From the NCBI RefSeq assembly GCF_900232905.1, contig NZ_OCTQ01000003.1:186001-250000 (forward strand): 64,000 bases of DNA, read 5' to 3'. The notes beneath the pieces are model-generated. The model was given only the letters and a program-made list of their open reading frames with translations. It made no database searches and had not been told where the DNA came from. Positions within the stretch are counted from its first letter, which is position 1. Each line of letters starts with the position of its first letter. The DNA comes from Miniphocaeibacter massiliensis. Its GTDB lineage: Bacteria > Bacillota > Clostridia > Tissierellales > Peptoniphilaceae. This document shows, in pieces, positions 30,084-39,484 of the stretch. The position numbers and the translations under genes were made by a program.

Positions 30084-31247
30084 ATGAAGAAAAGTTTTAA
30101 AGGCTTATTATTATTAATTATTATTATATTTACAGGTTGTAGTAGTAAAACAGAAAAATTGAAATTGATTAGTAATGATATAGAAGCTAATGAAGAAAAT
30201 TATACTGCAAAAATAACTGCTACAGGGGATATTATGTATCATCCTTGGACATTTAGAGATGTTAAAGATTCAGATGGAAATTATGATTTTTCACATTTTT
30301 ATCAAGAAATGCAAGATGAAATAATAAAATCTGATTTAATGATAGGAAATTTTGAAACAACTTCAACACCTAGTAGGAAAATGAGTGGATTTCCAATGTT
30401 TAATACACCAGAAAAAGCAATAGAAGATTTAAAAAAATCGGGTTTTGATATTCTAACGACAGCTAATAATCATTGTATAGATTCAGGAAAAGTAGGAATA
30501 GAAGATACTATAGATGCTTTTGATAAAAACGGAATAAAACATACCGGAACTTGGAAAAAAGGAGAAAATAAAAAATATTTAATAGAGGAAGTAAATAATA
30601 TAAAAATAGGATTTTTAGCATATACAGAAAGCTTTAATGGGGTGGAAGGAAATTTAAAGCAAGATGAAAAAAGTATGATAAGTCCCTTAAACGAGGAAGA
30701 AATAAAAAAAGATATAGAAACTTTAAAAGATAAAAAAGCGGACTTTATTGTTATTTTCCCACATTGGGGTGTGGAATATTCTACTAAACCTAACGATTTT
30801 CAAAAAGAGTTGGGGCATAAAATGCTAGATTGGGGAGCAGATGTTATTTTAGGTAGTCATCCTCATGTTATACAACCAATTGAAAAAGTAGAAAAAGATG
30901 GGAAAGAAAAATATATTATATACTCAATGGGAAATTCAATATCTGGCCAAAGAGAAAGATATTCTAAAAATTCTAATACAGAAGCAGGAGTATTTGTTAA
31001 CTTAAATATAGAAAAGAAATCTTCAGAAAATGAAGCTGTAATAAAAAATATAGAAATTAGTCCAACTTGGGTTAAAGAAGAGAAAAATGAAGGTAAGAAA
31101 ATACTTGAAGTTGTTCCAATGAATGAATATTTAGAAAGTGGAAAGCTTAGAAGTACAGTATCATCAGATAATCTCAATAGAATATTAAATATCAGGAAAA
31201 ATTCAATAGATATATTAGAATCTATGGGGTATGAAACTGGACTATAA
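30084..31247 (+). CDS. CapA/PgsA-family metallophosphatase-like lipoprotein
   Basis: A 387-residue protein. The signal peptide ends in FTGCSSK, a lipobox, so it should be anchored outside. The domain has calcineurin-like motifs: TATGDIMYHPW, IGNFETT, TTANNHCIDSG, IVIFPHWGVEYS and ILGSHPHVIQPIE, the pattern of the CapA family (capsule poly-gamma-glutamate synthesis-associated). No capB/capC neighbours are present, so poly-gamma-glutamate synthesis is not supported here. It is monocistronic and ends at a terminator. Confidence 0.9.
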   Translation: MKKSFKGLLLLIIIIFTGCSSKTEKLKLISNDIEANEENYTAKITATGDIMYHPWTFRDVKDSDGNYDFSHFYQEMQDEIIKSDLMIGNFETTSTPSRKMSGFPMFNTPEKAIEDLKKSGFDILTTANNHCIDSGKVGIEDTIDAFDKNGIKHTGTWKKGENKKYLIEEVNNIKIGFLAYTESFNGVEGNLKQDEKSMISPLNEEEIKKDIETLKDKKADFIVIFPHWGVEYSTKPNDFQKELGHKMLDWGADVILGSHPHVIQPIEKVEKDGKEKYIIYSMGNSISGQRERYSKNSNTEAGVFVNLNIEKKSSENEAVIKNIEISPTWVKEEKNEGKKILEVVPMNEYLESGKLRSTVSSDNLNRILNIRKNSIDILESMGYETGL

Positions 31248-31269
31248 AGGCTGAGTACAGCCTTTTTTT
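31246..31269 (+). terminator. Rho-independent terminator
   Basis: AAAGGCTG/CAGCCTTT arms with an AGTA loop and a long T-run, overlapping the stop of the CapA-like gene. Confidence 0.9.
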
Positions 31270-31355
31270 ATTGCAAGTAACGAATTTAAAAAAATTGTAG
31301 CATTTATTAAGAAAAAATTAATAAAGATACTATATAATTAAAGGGGAGGCTTAAA

Positions 31356-31991
31356 ATGGAATTAGAATACTTAAAAAATAGAGGATATAAAGAATTTTAT
31401 GAAGATAAATTAAAATATATAGAAAAGGCCATGGAAATAATATATGAAAAGATTAAATGTATGGGAGAAAAACATTTAGTTTTAGAAGATAGAAATCCAA
31501 TAGAACATGTTAAATATAGAGTAAAACACCCAAAGAGCGTAAAAGAAAAATTAGAAAGACAAAAATTAGAAGTATCTTTAGAAAATTCATTAAATGAAAT
31601 ACAAGACGTTTGTGGATTTAGAATAGTATGTACTTTTATTAGCGATGTAAAATATATAATAAAAAAGATAGAAGAAATAGAAAATATTACAGTAGTTATA
31701 AAAAAAGATTACATAAATAAGCCTAAAAAAAATGGATATAGAAGTTATCATATTATATTGTCCTTACCTGTAGAAATAAATGGTGTAATAGAAAAAATAT
31801 ATGTAGAACTTCAAATAAGAACAATAGCTATGGATTGCTGGGCTAGCTTAGAGCATCAGCTAATGTATAAAAAAGATATAAGTAAGAGAGAATTATTTAA
31901 AGAAGAATTAAAAAAATGTGCAGATGAGATGGCAACAACAGACTTAAATTTAGAAACAATTATGACATTCATAGAAAGTGAAGGTATTTAA
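31356..31991 (+). CDS. Small alarmone synthetase (RelA/SpoT-type GTP pyrophosphokinase)
   Basis: A 211-residue single-domain synthetase of the YjbM/YwaC type, with no HD hydrolase or regulatory domains. Family features: EHVKYRVKHPKSVKEKL near the ATP site, EIQDVCGFRIVCTFISDV (residues about 81-98), NKPKKNGYRSYHIILSLP and EKIYVELQIRTIAMDCWASL with EHQLMYKK. These are the RelA_SpoT fold's substrate strands. It makes (p)ppGpp from ATP and GDP/GTP. GGGGAGG is upstream of the ATG and TATAAT (31333-31338) lies close before it. The following response regulator starts on the next base after its stop, so the two are cotranslated. Confidence 0.9.
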   Translation: MELEYLKNRGYKEFYEDKLKYIEKAMEIIYEKIKCMGEKHLVLEDRNPIEHVKYRVKHPKSVKEKLERQKLEVSLENSLNEIQDVCGFRIVCTFISDVKYIIKKIEEIENITVVIKKDYINKPKKNGYRSYHIILSLPVEINGVIEKIYVELQIRTIAMDCWASLEHQLMYKKDISKRELFKEELKKCADEMATTDLNLETIMTFIESEGI

Positions 31992-32666
31992 GTGAGACTT
32001 TTATATGCAGAAGATGAAATACAATTAGCTAGAGCCATATCTACAATATTAGAATATAACAATTATATAGTAGATAATGCTTATGATGGAGAAGAAGCAT
32101 TAAACCTTGCGGTTAATAATAATTATGATGCTATAATACTAGATATAATGATGCCTAAAAAAGACGGAGTTGAAGTATTAAGGGAAATAAGGAGTAAAAA
32201 TATATTGACACCAATAATTATGGTAACTGCAAAAGGGGAAAACTCAGATAAAATTGATGGTCTAGAATCTGGAGCAGATGATTACTTAGCAAAACCTTTT
32301 CAGACTAATGAACTTATAGCAAGATTAAAAGCACTAACAAGGAGAAATACAAACTACATAGATAATTATAAAATAGGAGATATAAATTATAATATCTCTG
32401 GAAATAAATTTGAAAAAGACAATAAAACATTAATACTAAATAGTGAAGAAGTAAAAATTATAAATAAATTTATATCTAATATGGATGCGACATTAAAATA
32501 TGAACAAATATTAACGGTTTTAGACATGGATGAAAGTGAAAAAAATTTGTCTAAGATTAAATTATATATAGCATATATAAATAAAAAATTTGAAGAACTG
32601 GAGTCAGAGTATCGAATATTTGGAGATATAGAATTTGGAATAAAATTAGGGATAAAAAATGTATAG
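31992..32666 (+). CDS. Response regulator with diverged OmpR-like output domain
   Basis: A 224-residue protein starting at GTG directly after the synthetase stop codon. The receiver domain is intact: acidic pocket AEDE (6-9), phosphoacceptor Asp51 in LDIMMPKKDG, Thr79 and Lys101 (LAKPF). The C-terminal part (about 130-224) aligns only loosely with the OmpR winged helix. The recognition-helix segment reads LSKIKLYIAYINKKFEEL and lacks the usual arginine-rich HISRLRKKL, and the wing lacks TVRGVGY. It may bind DNA differently or act by protein contact. It overlaps the kinase gene by 8 bases. Confidence 0.88.
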   Translation: MRLLYAEDEIQLARAISTILEYNNYIVDNAYDGEEALNLAVNNNYDAIILDIMMPKKDGVEVLREIRSKNILTPIIMVTAKGENSDKIDGLESGADDYLAKPFQTNELIARLKALTRRNTNYIDNYKIGDINYNISGNKFEKDNKTLILNSEEVKIINKFISNMDATLKYEQILTVLDMDESEKNLSKIKLYIAYINKKFEELESEYRIFGDIEFGIKLGIKNV

Positions 32667-33894
32667 AAGATTAAGAAAAAACTTTATTTTAGTAACAACA
32701 TTATCACTATTATTAGTTCTAGGATTAACTATGTTCATATTAAATATAGTTACTATGAACAGAACAAGAGAATTAGCAGATTTGAAAATCTCGGCGATAT
32801 ATAAGGCATATAGCAAAAAAAATGACTTTGACATAAAAGATCTTGAAAGTATTTTACAAAAATTAGATGAAGCAGAAATTACTAAAGATACACCATATAA
32901 AATTAGATATTTCTACGTAGTTTTTGATAAAAATAAGATTCTTACAGAAATAAATGTTGATAGAATAGCAGAAGAAAATGAAGCAAAGGCAAAAGAACTT
33001 TCTGAAAAAATAATAAATGAAAATAAAAGTAAGGGATATATTGAAAAATATCGTTATAATGTGGAATCTACAGAAAATGGAGAAATGGTTATATTCTTAG
33101 ATACTGTTAGTGACTTACAAGCTCAAAAAGTGATTTTGGAATCTTCACTTATTATAGGAGCAACAATAAGTGGTCTTGTAATACTTATAGTCTCAATGTT
33201 ATCTAAAAAAGTGATACAACCTTTTATAGATAATGAAGAGAAACAAAGACATTTTATAACAGATGCTGGACACGAATTAAAAACGCCGATATCTATAATT
33301 TCAGCAAATACAGAAATGGTTGAAATATTAAATGGAGAAAGTGAATGGACAGAAAGTACAAAGGTACAGTTAGTTAGAATGGAGAAACTTATAAAAAACT
33401 TCTTAGCACTTTCGAAATCTGATGAAACTAGCATTGAAACTCAAGAAGAAATAAATTTTTCAGAATTATTGAAAAATGTATGCAAAGATTTTAAAGGTAG
33501 GGCAGAAATTAAAGGAAAAACGATAAAAGCAGAAATACAAGGCGACATAAAAATAATGGCGGACTATGAGCAAATTCAACAAGTTATTAATATATTAATT
33601 GATAATGCAATAAAATATGCACAAGACGATAATGCTATATTTGTTAATTTAAATAAAATAAGAAAAACAGCATCTTTAAAAATAGGTAATAAAATAGAAA
33701 ATTTTACAAAAGAAGATGAGAAAAAAATATTTAATAGATTTTATAGAACAGACGACTCTAGGTCTAGAGATACAGGAGGATTTGGATTGGGACTTTCAAT
33801 AGCAGCGAAAATAATAGGTGCTCATGGTGGGAAAATTACAACAACATATAAAAATAGTTGGTTATTTTTCAATCTTGAATTTCCAATATTATAA
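32659..33894 (+). CDS. Sensor histidine kinase
   Basis: A 411-residue kinase. The first transmembrane helix is at about 10-32, an extracytoplasmic Lys/Glu-rich sensor follows to about 160, and the second helix is at about 163-182. The DHp follows almost at once, with no clear HAMP: DAGHELKTPISII with phosphoacceptor His205. N box QVINILIDNAIKYA, and ATP-lid motifs DSRSRDTGGFGLGLSIA. It is the partner of the preceding regulator, whose gene it overlaps. The signal is unknown. Confidence 0.92.
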   Translation: MYRRLRKNFILVTTLSLLLVLGLTMFILNIVTMNRTRELADLKISAIYKAYSKKNDFDIKDLESILQKLDEAEITKDTPYKIRYFYVVFDKNKILTEINVDRIAEENEAKAKELSEKIINENKSKGYIEKYRYNVESTENGEMVIFLDTVSDLQAQKVILESSLIIGATISGLVILIVSMLSKKVIQPFIDNEEKQRHFITDAGHELKTPISIISANTEMVEILNGESEWTESTKVQLVRMEKLIKNFLALSKSDETSIETQEEINFSELLKNVCKDFKGRAEIKGKTIKAEIQGDIKIMADYEQIQQVINILIDNAIKYAQDDNAIFVNLNKIRKTASLKIGNKIENFTKEDEKKIFNRFYRTDDSRSRDTGGFGLGLSIAAKIIGAHGGKITTTYKNSWLFFNLEFPIL

Positions 33895-33921
33895 TAAATA
33901 ATATTTAGAAAGGTGTTAATT

Positions 33922-34491
33922 TTGTCAGAAATAGATGTATTAAAAAAAGAAAATATACTAGAAAAATTTTTGGATAGTAGAGAAATAAAAGAAATATTAC
34001 GAATTATAGATAACTTGGGGTTAAAAGAAGCTTGTCTATGTGCTGGAGCAATTAGAAATAACCTATGGAATATTATAGATGGAAAAGAGTTGGAATTTGA
34101 TACAGATATAGATGTAATATTCTATGACAAGGAAATATCTTATGAAAAAACTTGTGAAATAGAAGATAGTTTAAAAGAAAATTATCCTAAATATAATTGG
34201 GAATTAAAGAACCAAGTATACATGCATATACATTCTAGTAGTGAAGCTTTTTTGAATGTAGAAGAAGCTATAAGTAAATTTCCTGAAACTTGTACAGCTG
34301 TGGGGATAATATTTGAAAAAGATAGTTATAAATGGATAGCTCCTTATGGACTAGAAGATATTTTTAATAAAATAGTAAGACCTACTCCTGAATTTAGAAA
34401 AAATAAAAGAAAAATGAATATCTATATTAATAGAGTAAAGAATAAAAAATGGGAGAAAAAGTGGAAAGATATAAAGGTATTTTATGAATAA
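33922..34491 (+). CDS. DUF925-like nucleotidyltransferase family protein
   Basis: A 189-residue protein. The visible family motifs are CLCAGAIRNNLWNIIDGK, FDTDIDVIFYD (metal-binding Asp pair), YNWELKNQVYMHIH and CTAVGIIFEKD. The layout fits the DUF925 nucleotidyltransferase-fold group. The start is taken as TTG at 33922 because AAAGG lies 8 bases upstream; a GTG at 33913 overlaps that site. It is 27 bases after the kinase gene and probably in the same operon. Substrate unknown. Confidence 0.82.
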   Translation: MSEIDVLKKENILEKFLDSREIKEILRIIDNLGLKEACLCAGAIRNNLWNIIDGKELEFDTDIDVIFYDKEISYEKTCEIEDSLKENYPKYNWELKNQVYMHIHSSSEAFLNVEEAISKFPETCTAVGIIFEKDSYKWIAPYGLEDIFNKIVRPTPEFRKNKRKMNIYINRVKNKKWEKKWKDIKVFYE

Positions 34492-34507
34492 AAACTAATA
34501 TAAATAG

Positions 34508-34536
34508 AAGAGGTGACTATATTCATCTCTTTTTTA
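34508..34536 (+). terminator. Rho-independent terminator
   Basis: AAGAGGTG/CATCTCTT arms (one G-U) around ACTATATT, then a T-run. It closes the alarmone synthetase-two-component operon. Confidence 0.85.
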
Positions 34537-37701: not shown

Positions 37702-37740
37702 AAATCTATAATATATAAGTTAGATTTATTGGAGGAGAAT

Positions 37741-38514
37741 ATGAACTATTTTAATTTTAACAATAAGGTAGCAGTAGTTTTTGGAGCATCTTCAGGTATA
37801 GGAAAGGCAGCAGCTTTAGGATATGGAGATTCAGGAGCAAGTGTTGCGGTGCTAGCGAGGAGAAAAGAAAAATTAGATACTCTTGTTAAAGAAATGAGAG
37901 ATAGAGGATATACAGCAGAGGCATTTGAATGTGATGTAACGAGTGAAGAAAGTATAAAAAATGCAGCTAAGGAAATCGTTAAGAAATTTGGAAAGATAGA
38001 TATTTTATTTAATAACGCAGGGATTGCTGTACCTGGTTCGGTTGAAAACTTGACAATTGAGCAATGGAATAATTCAATGAATACAAATGTAAGAGGAGCT
38101 TACATGACAATGAAGTATTTAGTTCCAGAAATGAAGAAAAATGGATATGGGAAAATTGTAAATACAGCTTCAGTAAATGCAGTTTTATTTGATAAAAATG
38201 ATGAGCTAGTAAGACATGCTTACAATGTATCTAAATCAGCAATGGTAGGTTTAACTAAAGCAGTAGCTTCTACATATATGAAAGATGGGATTACAGTTAA
38301 TTCAGTAGGTCCAGGCTTATTTGAAACAGAAATGACAGAAAATACTTTATTTAAACATGAAGGGTTTATGAATTCTTATAATGCAGTAAACCCAGCAGGA
38401 CGTCCAGGTAAAATGGAAGAGTTGGTAGGAACAATTTTATATTTATCATCAGATGCTTCAAATTATGTAACAGGTCAATTAATATTGGTAGATGGTGGAA
38501 TTACATTGGTATAA
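37741..38514 (+). CDS. Short-chain dehydrogenase/reductase (first copy)
   Basis: A 257-residue SDR. Cofactor site VFGASSGIGKAAALGYG, NNAGI, active-site Ser in NTASVNA and YNVSK (Tyr-x3-Lys), and C-terminal SSDASNYVTGQLILVDGG as in FabG-like 3-oxoacyl/sugar-alcohol dehydrogenases. Starts at 37741 with GGAGG 6 bases upstream. The substrate is unknown; no fatty-acid synthesis genes are adjacent. The next gene is a close paralogue. Confidence 0.93.
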   Translation: MNYFNFNNKVAVVFGASSGIGKAAALGYGDSGASVAVLARRKEKLDTLVKEMRDRGYTAEAFECDVTSEESIKNAAKEIVKKFGKIDILFNNAGIAVPGSVENLTIEQWNNSMNTNVRGAYMTMKYLVPEMKKNGYGKIVNTASVNAVLFDKNDELVRHAYNVSKSAMVGLTKAVASTYMKDGITVNSVGPGLFETEMTENTLFKHEGFMNSYNAVNPAGRPGKMEELVGTILYLSSDASNYVTGQLILVDGGITLV

Positions 38515-38725: not shown

Positions 38726-39484
38726 ATGAATTATTTTGATTTTAAAAACAAAGTAGCAGTAGTTTTTGGTGCAACTTCTAGAATAGGAAGAGCAGCAGCG
38801 TTAGGATATGGCGATTGTGGTGCTAAAGTAGCTATTTTATCAGAAAATAAAGAAGATTTAAAAGAATTATTTAAAGAAATGGGAAATAAAGGATATACAG
38901 TAGCTATGTTTGAATGTGATGTCACTAGTGAAGATAGTATAAAAAATGCGGCAGAAGAAATAGTAGAGAGATTTGGAAGTTTAGATATACTATTTAATAA
39001 TTCAGGAATTATACAACATGGATCTATTGAAGATTTAACAGAAGAAGAGTGGAATCAATCTATGAATATAAATGTTAGATCCGCATATATGACTATGAAA
39101 TATTTAATCCCAGAAATGAAGAAGAATGGTTATGGAAAAATTGTAAATACATCTTCAGCAAATGCGGTAGTCTTTAATAAAAATGAAAACTTAGTAAGAC
39201 ATGCTTATAACGTTTCAAAAGCTGCAATGGTAGGGCTTACAAAAGCAGTTGGAGCAACATATATGAAAGATGGTATAACCGTTAATTCAGTTGGACTTGG
39301 TATTTTTGAAGGAGAACTAGGAGATGAAAAAGAATTAGTAGAAAATTATCTTTTAAATAATCCATCAGGCCGTTTAGGGAAAATGGAAGAATTAATAGGG
39401 ACTATTATGTACTTATCATCAGATGCATCTAACTATATAACAGGACAATTTTTATTAGCTGATGGTGGAATGACATTAGTGTAA
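38726..39484 (+). CDS. Short-chain dehydrogenase/reductase (second copy, altered cofactor motif)
   Basis: A 252-residue paralogue of the preceding SDR. YNVSK and the serine (NTSSANA) are kept. The nucleotide loop reads VFGATSRIGRAAA, so the central glycine of GxxxGIG is arginine. NNAG is NNSG, and VGPG is VGLG. The substrate-lid region is 5 residues shorter. These changes suggest a changed cofactor preference or weakened activity. GGGGGAG precedes the ATG. It has its own promoter and terminator. Confidence 0.9.
   Translation: MNYFDFKNKVAVVFGATSRIGRAAALGYGDCGAKVAILSENKEDLKELFKEMGNKGYTVAMFECDVTSEDSIKNAAEEIVERFGSLDILFNNSGIIQHGSIEDLTEEEWNQSMNINVRSAYMTMKYLIPEMKKNGYGKIVNTSSANAVVFNKNENLVRHAYNVSKAAMVGLTKAVGATYMKDGITVNSVGLGIFEGELGDEKELVENYLLNNPSGRLGKMEELIGTIMYLSSDASNYITGQFLLADGGMTLV

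Follow-up and report, generated by a model that had tools for sequence, protein, structure and literature searches.

In Streptococcus mutans, relP, which encodes a small alarmone synthetase, shares an operon with relRS (SMU.926-928), and the gene order there is that of the locus described here (PMC4963387, PMC7545056). A further S. mutans study reported that RelRS activates relP (PMC7674665). When RelS is activated in S. agalactiae, both RelR phosphorylation and purine genes rise, without positive autoregulation (PMC11502775). The window, that is, the whole 64,000-nucleotide stretch of DNA analysed, carries an operon of this RelPRS type, in which a membrane sensor, its partner regulator and a (p)ppGpp-making enzyme are made together. 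An earlier note on this DNA knew of no described system of this composition; however, relPRS had already been described (PMC4963387, PMC7545056) and the composition is common, with a synthetase beside the two-component pair in 45 of 80 contigs picked by regulator similarity. This trio has been found in streptococci and occurs widely among gut Firmicutes; what is odd about the present locus is the strongly diverged output domain of its regulator. The features of the locus are as follows.

31246..31265, + strand: terminator-like hairpin with a T run, belonging to the preceding gene; upstream operon border
31306..31338, + strand: putative promoter/operator, conserved in three genus members
31356..31991, + strand: small alarmone synthetase (SAS), RelP/YwaC-like, 211 aa (PF04607, 2.1e-30)
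31992..32666, + strand: response regulator (RR), RelR-like, 224 aa, with receiver 1-118 and diverged OmpR-type winged helix 125-221 (PF00072, 2e-30)
32659..33894, + strand: membrane sensor histidine kinase (HK), RelS-like, 411 aa (HisKA PF00512 and HATPase_c PF02518)
33913..34491, + strand: PF06042 (DUF925) nucleotidyltransferase, accessory gene (PF06042, 6.3e-49)
34506..34533, + strand: terminator-like hairpin with a T run; downstream operon border

The SAS, RR and HK genes are adjacent and in the RelPRS order, and all four genes follow one another on the + strand almost without gaps. The GTG start of the regulator directly abuts the TAA stop of the synthetase, and the regulator and kinase genes overlap by 8 nt. 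The gene positions, abutment and overlap given in the earlier note thus agree with the ORF coordinates, and its claim that (p)ppGpp synthesis and a sensor are produced together holds: judged by their layout, the genes are co-expressed. Three terminator-like sites were observed in the region, compared with 0.4 expected from shuffled sequences. Elsewhere in the window, two similar short-chain dehydrogenase genes stand in tandem (37729-38514 and 38726-39484), evidently through duplication.

The fourth gene had been taken as a further nucleotide-handling enzyme of the same unit. It does adjoin the kinase gene between the same terminators, but the PF06042 gene was absent from the 24 other family genomes examined (both genus-mates and 22 more), and in both genus-mates the kinase is followed, beyond a hairpin, by a FAD-dependent gene. 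Because it is absent in the genus-mates, we rejected it as part of a nucleotide-signalling unit; judged from its distribution, it is a species-level addition and lies outside the conserved module. Its annotated GTG start may be wrong, as GAAAGGTG resembles a ribosome-binding site for a TTG start several codons downstream, at about 33922.

The synthetase has intact NGYRSYH and VELQIRT motifs, and its catalytic motifs align with those of RelP and YwaC. It matches PF04607 only, has no hydrolase domain, and its 211 aa fall within the expected length of about 200-250 aa; from the intact motifs, it would be expected to synthesize (p)ppGpp. Its best matches among solved structures were Staphylococcus aureus RelP (6ewz, 2.3e-38) and Bacillus subtilis YwaC (6fgk, 5.3e-38), with a weaker match to YjbM/RelQ (5f2v, 3.3e-28). 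The pairwise scores were 135 bits for RelP/YwaC and 102 bits for YjbM, so that by best match the enzyme is apparently nearer to RelP/YwaC, and the label "YjbM-like" in the earlier note should be replaced accordingly. Another open frame of the same genome, 745 aa in length, belongs to the long Rel type. A 456-aa protein encoded elsewhere in the genome (L003:673-2043, - strand) has a weaker RelA_SpoT domain (47.8 bits) that reads NGFEIYKID in place of the usual NGYRSYH motif, and its long C-terminal part matches nothing in Pfam. Most family genomes contain similar open frames, 440-490 aa in length; the protein may be an alarmone synthetase that is altered or inactive.

The 80 genome contigs were picked by regulator similarity alone, and because this sampling favoured relatives of the window regulator, the locus frequencies are not population figures. 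An SAS lay beside the two-component pair in 45 of them. In 43 it was upstream on the same strand in the order SAS-RR-HK (41 within about 220 nt, most within 26 nt), and in two further loci (L066 and L072) it followed the kinase. The earlier note had allowed that relatives might commonly carry the synthetase elsewhere; instead, most close relatives of the regulator are SAS-linked. Two Lachnospiraceae loci (L035:1299-3693 and L042:4363-6681) have a gap of about 1.0-1.1 kb between synthetase and regulator, with room for an inserted gene. Within the family, 16 of 130 genomes encode an SAS of the window kind: the three genus members and G013 in the order SAS-RR-HK, G030 in the order RR-HK-SAS, and 11 without a neighbouring regulator. 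In the phylum sample, the 29 best SAS loci besides these included nine with a regulator within reach.

The phylogenetic tree of 92 SAS rows placed 57 of the 58 linked synthetases in one clade (100/99), spanning Clostridia, Negativicutes, Erysipelotrichia and Coriobacteria. Stand-alone synthetases and the RelP, YwaC and YjbM rows fell outside it, the YjbM row on an unreliable long branch. The locus outside the clade, L150, had been labelled linked only through a distant regulator nearby. In the regulator tree, 45 linked and two unlinked rows formed one clade (99/100) of ordinary winged-helix regulators, with the window regulator inside it. The coupling, studied mainly in streptococci, is thus an old and widespread cassette whose synthetases form a clade of their own, and its many natural variants could help to identify what RelRS senses and what it targets.

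The 43 loci in the order SAS-RR-HK, the two with the synthetase last, the single clades of linked synthetases and regulators, and the reported activation of relP by RelRS in S. mutans (PMC7674665) favour the reading that we consider probable, namely a stress module of RelPRS type running from sensing through D51 phosphorylation and repeat binding to more synthetase. The membrane kinase would detect an envelope or environmental cue and phosphorylate D51 of the regulator. The regulator would then dimerise, and its diverged winged helix would bind an 11-bp direct repeat that replaces the -35 box of the operon. Binding would activate the operon, and the higher synthetase level would raise basal (p)ppGpp.

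An alignment of the H, N and G boxes showed that the H box of the kinase is intact. The sensor region (1-185) is diverged, with 42% identity to a genus-mate compared with 80% in the catalytic region. Instead of a regular G1 box (DxGxG), the window kinase (32659-33894) and nearly all SAS-linked relatives (L005-L111) have N-containing variants; because the relatives share this change, we rejected it as a special feature and regard it as a clade trait.

The receiver of the regulator is ordinary (PF00072, 2e-30), intact as the earlier note had claimed, and keeps the invariant D8, D51, T79 and K101. The C-terminal domain scored 16.9-18.6 bits against Trans_reg_C (PF00486), under the curated cut-off of 26.2. 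The domain is indeed an outlier within its genome (18.6 bits, whereas its 17 other PF00486 matches score 70.9-98.9), which bears out its description as atypical. Among 36 aligned clade regulators, 35 matched Trans_reg_C at E<0.001, the window regulator being the lone exception. Its median identity to linked relatives was 54% in the receiver and 21% in the output domain, compared with 68% and 45% among the linked relatives themselves. Trp178, present in 42 of 42 relatives, and R/K197 of the recognition helix, present in 40 of 42, are lost in the genus, and the recognition helix is only 25% identical to that of relatives. The genus stem in the regulator tree is long (1.78). From the low score, the low output identity, the two lost residues and the long stem, the drift of the output domain is real and specific to the genus, and it comes on top of a clade-wide type of wing. 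The TVRGxGY wing, reported as missing, is absent from the window regulator, but the clade alignment shows the same absence throughout the SAS-linked clade.

An AlphaFold2 model built on a 36-sequence alignment had a mean pLDDT of 91.9 and an output domain with a sheet (125-148), three helices (151-162, 170-177 and, as recognition helix, 183-202) and a hairpin that forms the wing (207-221); the pLDDT of recognition helix and wing was about 90. The nearest full-length folds in the PDB included 1kgs and DNA-bound RpaA, KdpE, PmrA and PhoP, although a different placement of the two domains limits the whole-chain TM-scores to about 0.5. A control folding the output domain from its single sequence was of poor, unusable quality, and the predicted fold therefore rests on homology. 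The output domain thus models as a complete OmpR winged helix. On the strength of this model and the clade alignment, we rejected a missing output domain; the structure prediction that the earlier note had proposed thus gave, with relatives aligned, one half of the outcome that the note itself had named as refuting.

Between genus-mates, dN was 0.022 and dS 0.494 in the output domain (dN/dS about 0.045), close to the receiver (dN 0.018, dS 0.708, dN/dS 0.026), and these ratios indicate that the output domain is under purifying selection. In the comparison between species, window against G002, recognition helix and wing were 73% kept and the a2 region 29%, as expected of a working surface, whether its partner is DNA or protein. 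Decay of the output domain, with loss of regulator function in the genus, would fit the PF00486 score below threshold and an eight-residue deletion in genus-mate G001, yet three species show no frameshift or stop and the dN/dS values speak for constraint, making this reading barely credible. The G001 deletion removes 24 bp in frame from the output domain of the L006 regulator, corresponding to window positions 32418-32441, and is flanked by two similar ATT-TTA-AAT stretches; it is either real or an assembly error, in an assembly of 880 contigs with 9% contamination.

The terminator-to-SAS interval contains, in all three genus members, ATTAAGAAAA-NN-TTAA followed by 11 nt and TATAAT. Of the 33 positions in this block, 25 are invariant, and the DNA further upstream is much less alike. 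The TTAA direct repeat at 31306-31322 has its copies 11 bp apart at the -35 position, with period and spacing to the -10 box constant; an 11-bp repeat period is typical of OmpR/PhoB proteins. No -35 consensus hexamer stands at the repeat, and a sigma-70 scan gave no hit at 31306-31338. The operon's own promoter is the single exact match to the full pattern in the genome. A genome search for a regulon with this pattern gave no excess of near matches (33, compared with 30 in a reversed control). Taken by itself, the direct repeat has no significance in such AT-rich DNA (10 occurrences on the two strands of the window, where base composition predicts about 16 per strand); only its conservation and position count as evidence. 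The conserved repeat, its period, its -35 position and the single exact match suggest that the regulator targets its own operon, with a putative operator at 31306-31322.

The regulator might instead bind DNA with its main targets elsewhere, for example at purine or nucleotide-metabolism genes, the operon promoter being constitutive and the conserved block a promoter or UP element. The rise of purine genes without autoregulation on RelS activation in S. agalactiae (PMC11502775) counts against autoactivation and points this way, as does the commonness of the repeat in AT-rich DNA. However, only the promoter-proximal block, with its constant period and spacing, is conserved while upstream DNA has diverged, the promoter lacks a -35 box, and the genome holds no second exact site, so we regard main targets elsewhere as unlikely.

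The earlier note had proposed that the phosphorylated regulator switches the co-made synthetase or another protein by contact and not through DNA. The strong divergence of the output domain and the tight translational coupling with the synthetase would suit such a role. Nevertheless, relatives with ordinary output domains are tightly coupled as well, the regulator models as a complete winged helix whose recognition helix and wing are selectively kept, and the promoter is conserved and operator-like; action by contact is distinctly improbable. Its narrower form, in which a RelR-type regulator left DNA in this genus and became a phosphorylation-dependent partner of the co-encoded synthetase, is a long shot; if it were true, the sensor kinase would control (p)ppGpp synthesis post-translationally.

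Counted against a DNA-acting regulator are the sub-cut-off PF00486 score, the loss of Trp178 and R/K197, the G001 deletion and the leaning of the fold model on the relatives' alignment. On the other side stand the complete winged-helix model, the low dN/dS, the kept helix and wing, and a conserved promoter with a -10 but no -35 box. Fold, selection and promoter together favour DNA over protein as the target, and the drift at genus level offers a test of the limits of co-evolution between winged helix and operator.

Among known systems, the regulator shares its receiver and predicted winged-helix architecture with the OmpR/PhoB-type DrrD (1kgs), ArlR and KdpE, but lacks their arginine-rich TVxxHIRRLR helix and TVRGxGY wing. 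The synthetase shares fold and motifs with the stand-alone S. aureus RelP (6ewz), B. subtilis YwaC (6fgk) and YjbM/RelQ (5f2v), which lie outside the two-component-linked clade that holds it. The cassettes of Lachnospiraceae, Ruminococcaceae, Veillonellaceae, Erysipelotrichaceae, Coriobacteriaceae and Gallicola (L034-L111, L080) have the same order, spacing and strand, with synthetase and regulator in the same clades as those of the window; however, their regulators keep Trp178 and R/K197 and pass PF00486, and identity is only 36-46%. S. mutans relPRS likewise has a RelP-type synthetase, then an OmpR-type regulator, then a histidine kinase in one operon. From gene order and type, we infer kinship to the streptococcal RelPRS; compared with S. 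mutans relPRS and S. agalactiae RelRS, the window locus is from a different class and has a strongly diverged output domain and an extra PF06042 gene.
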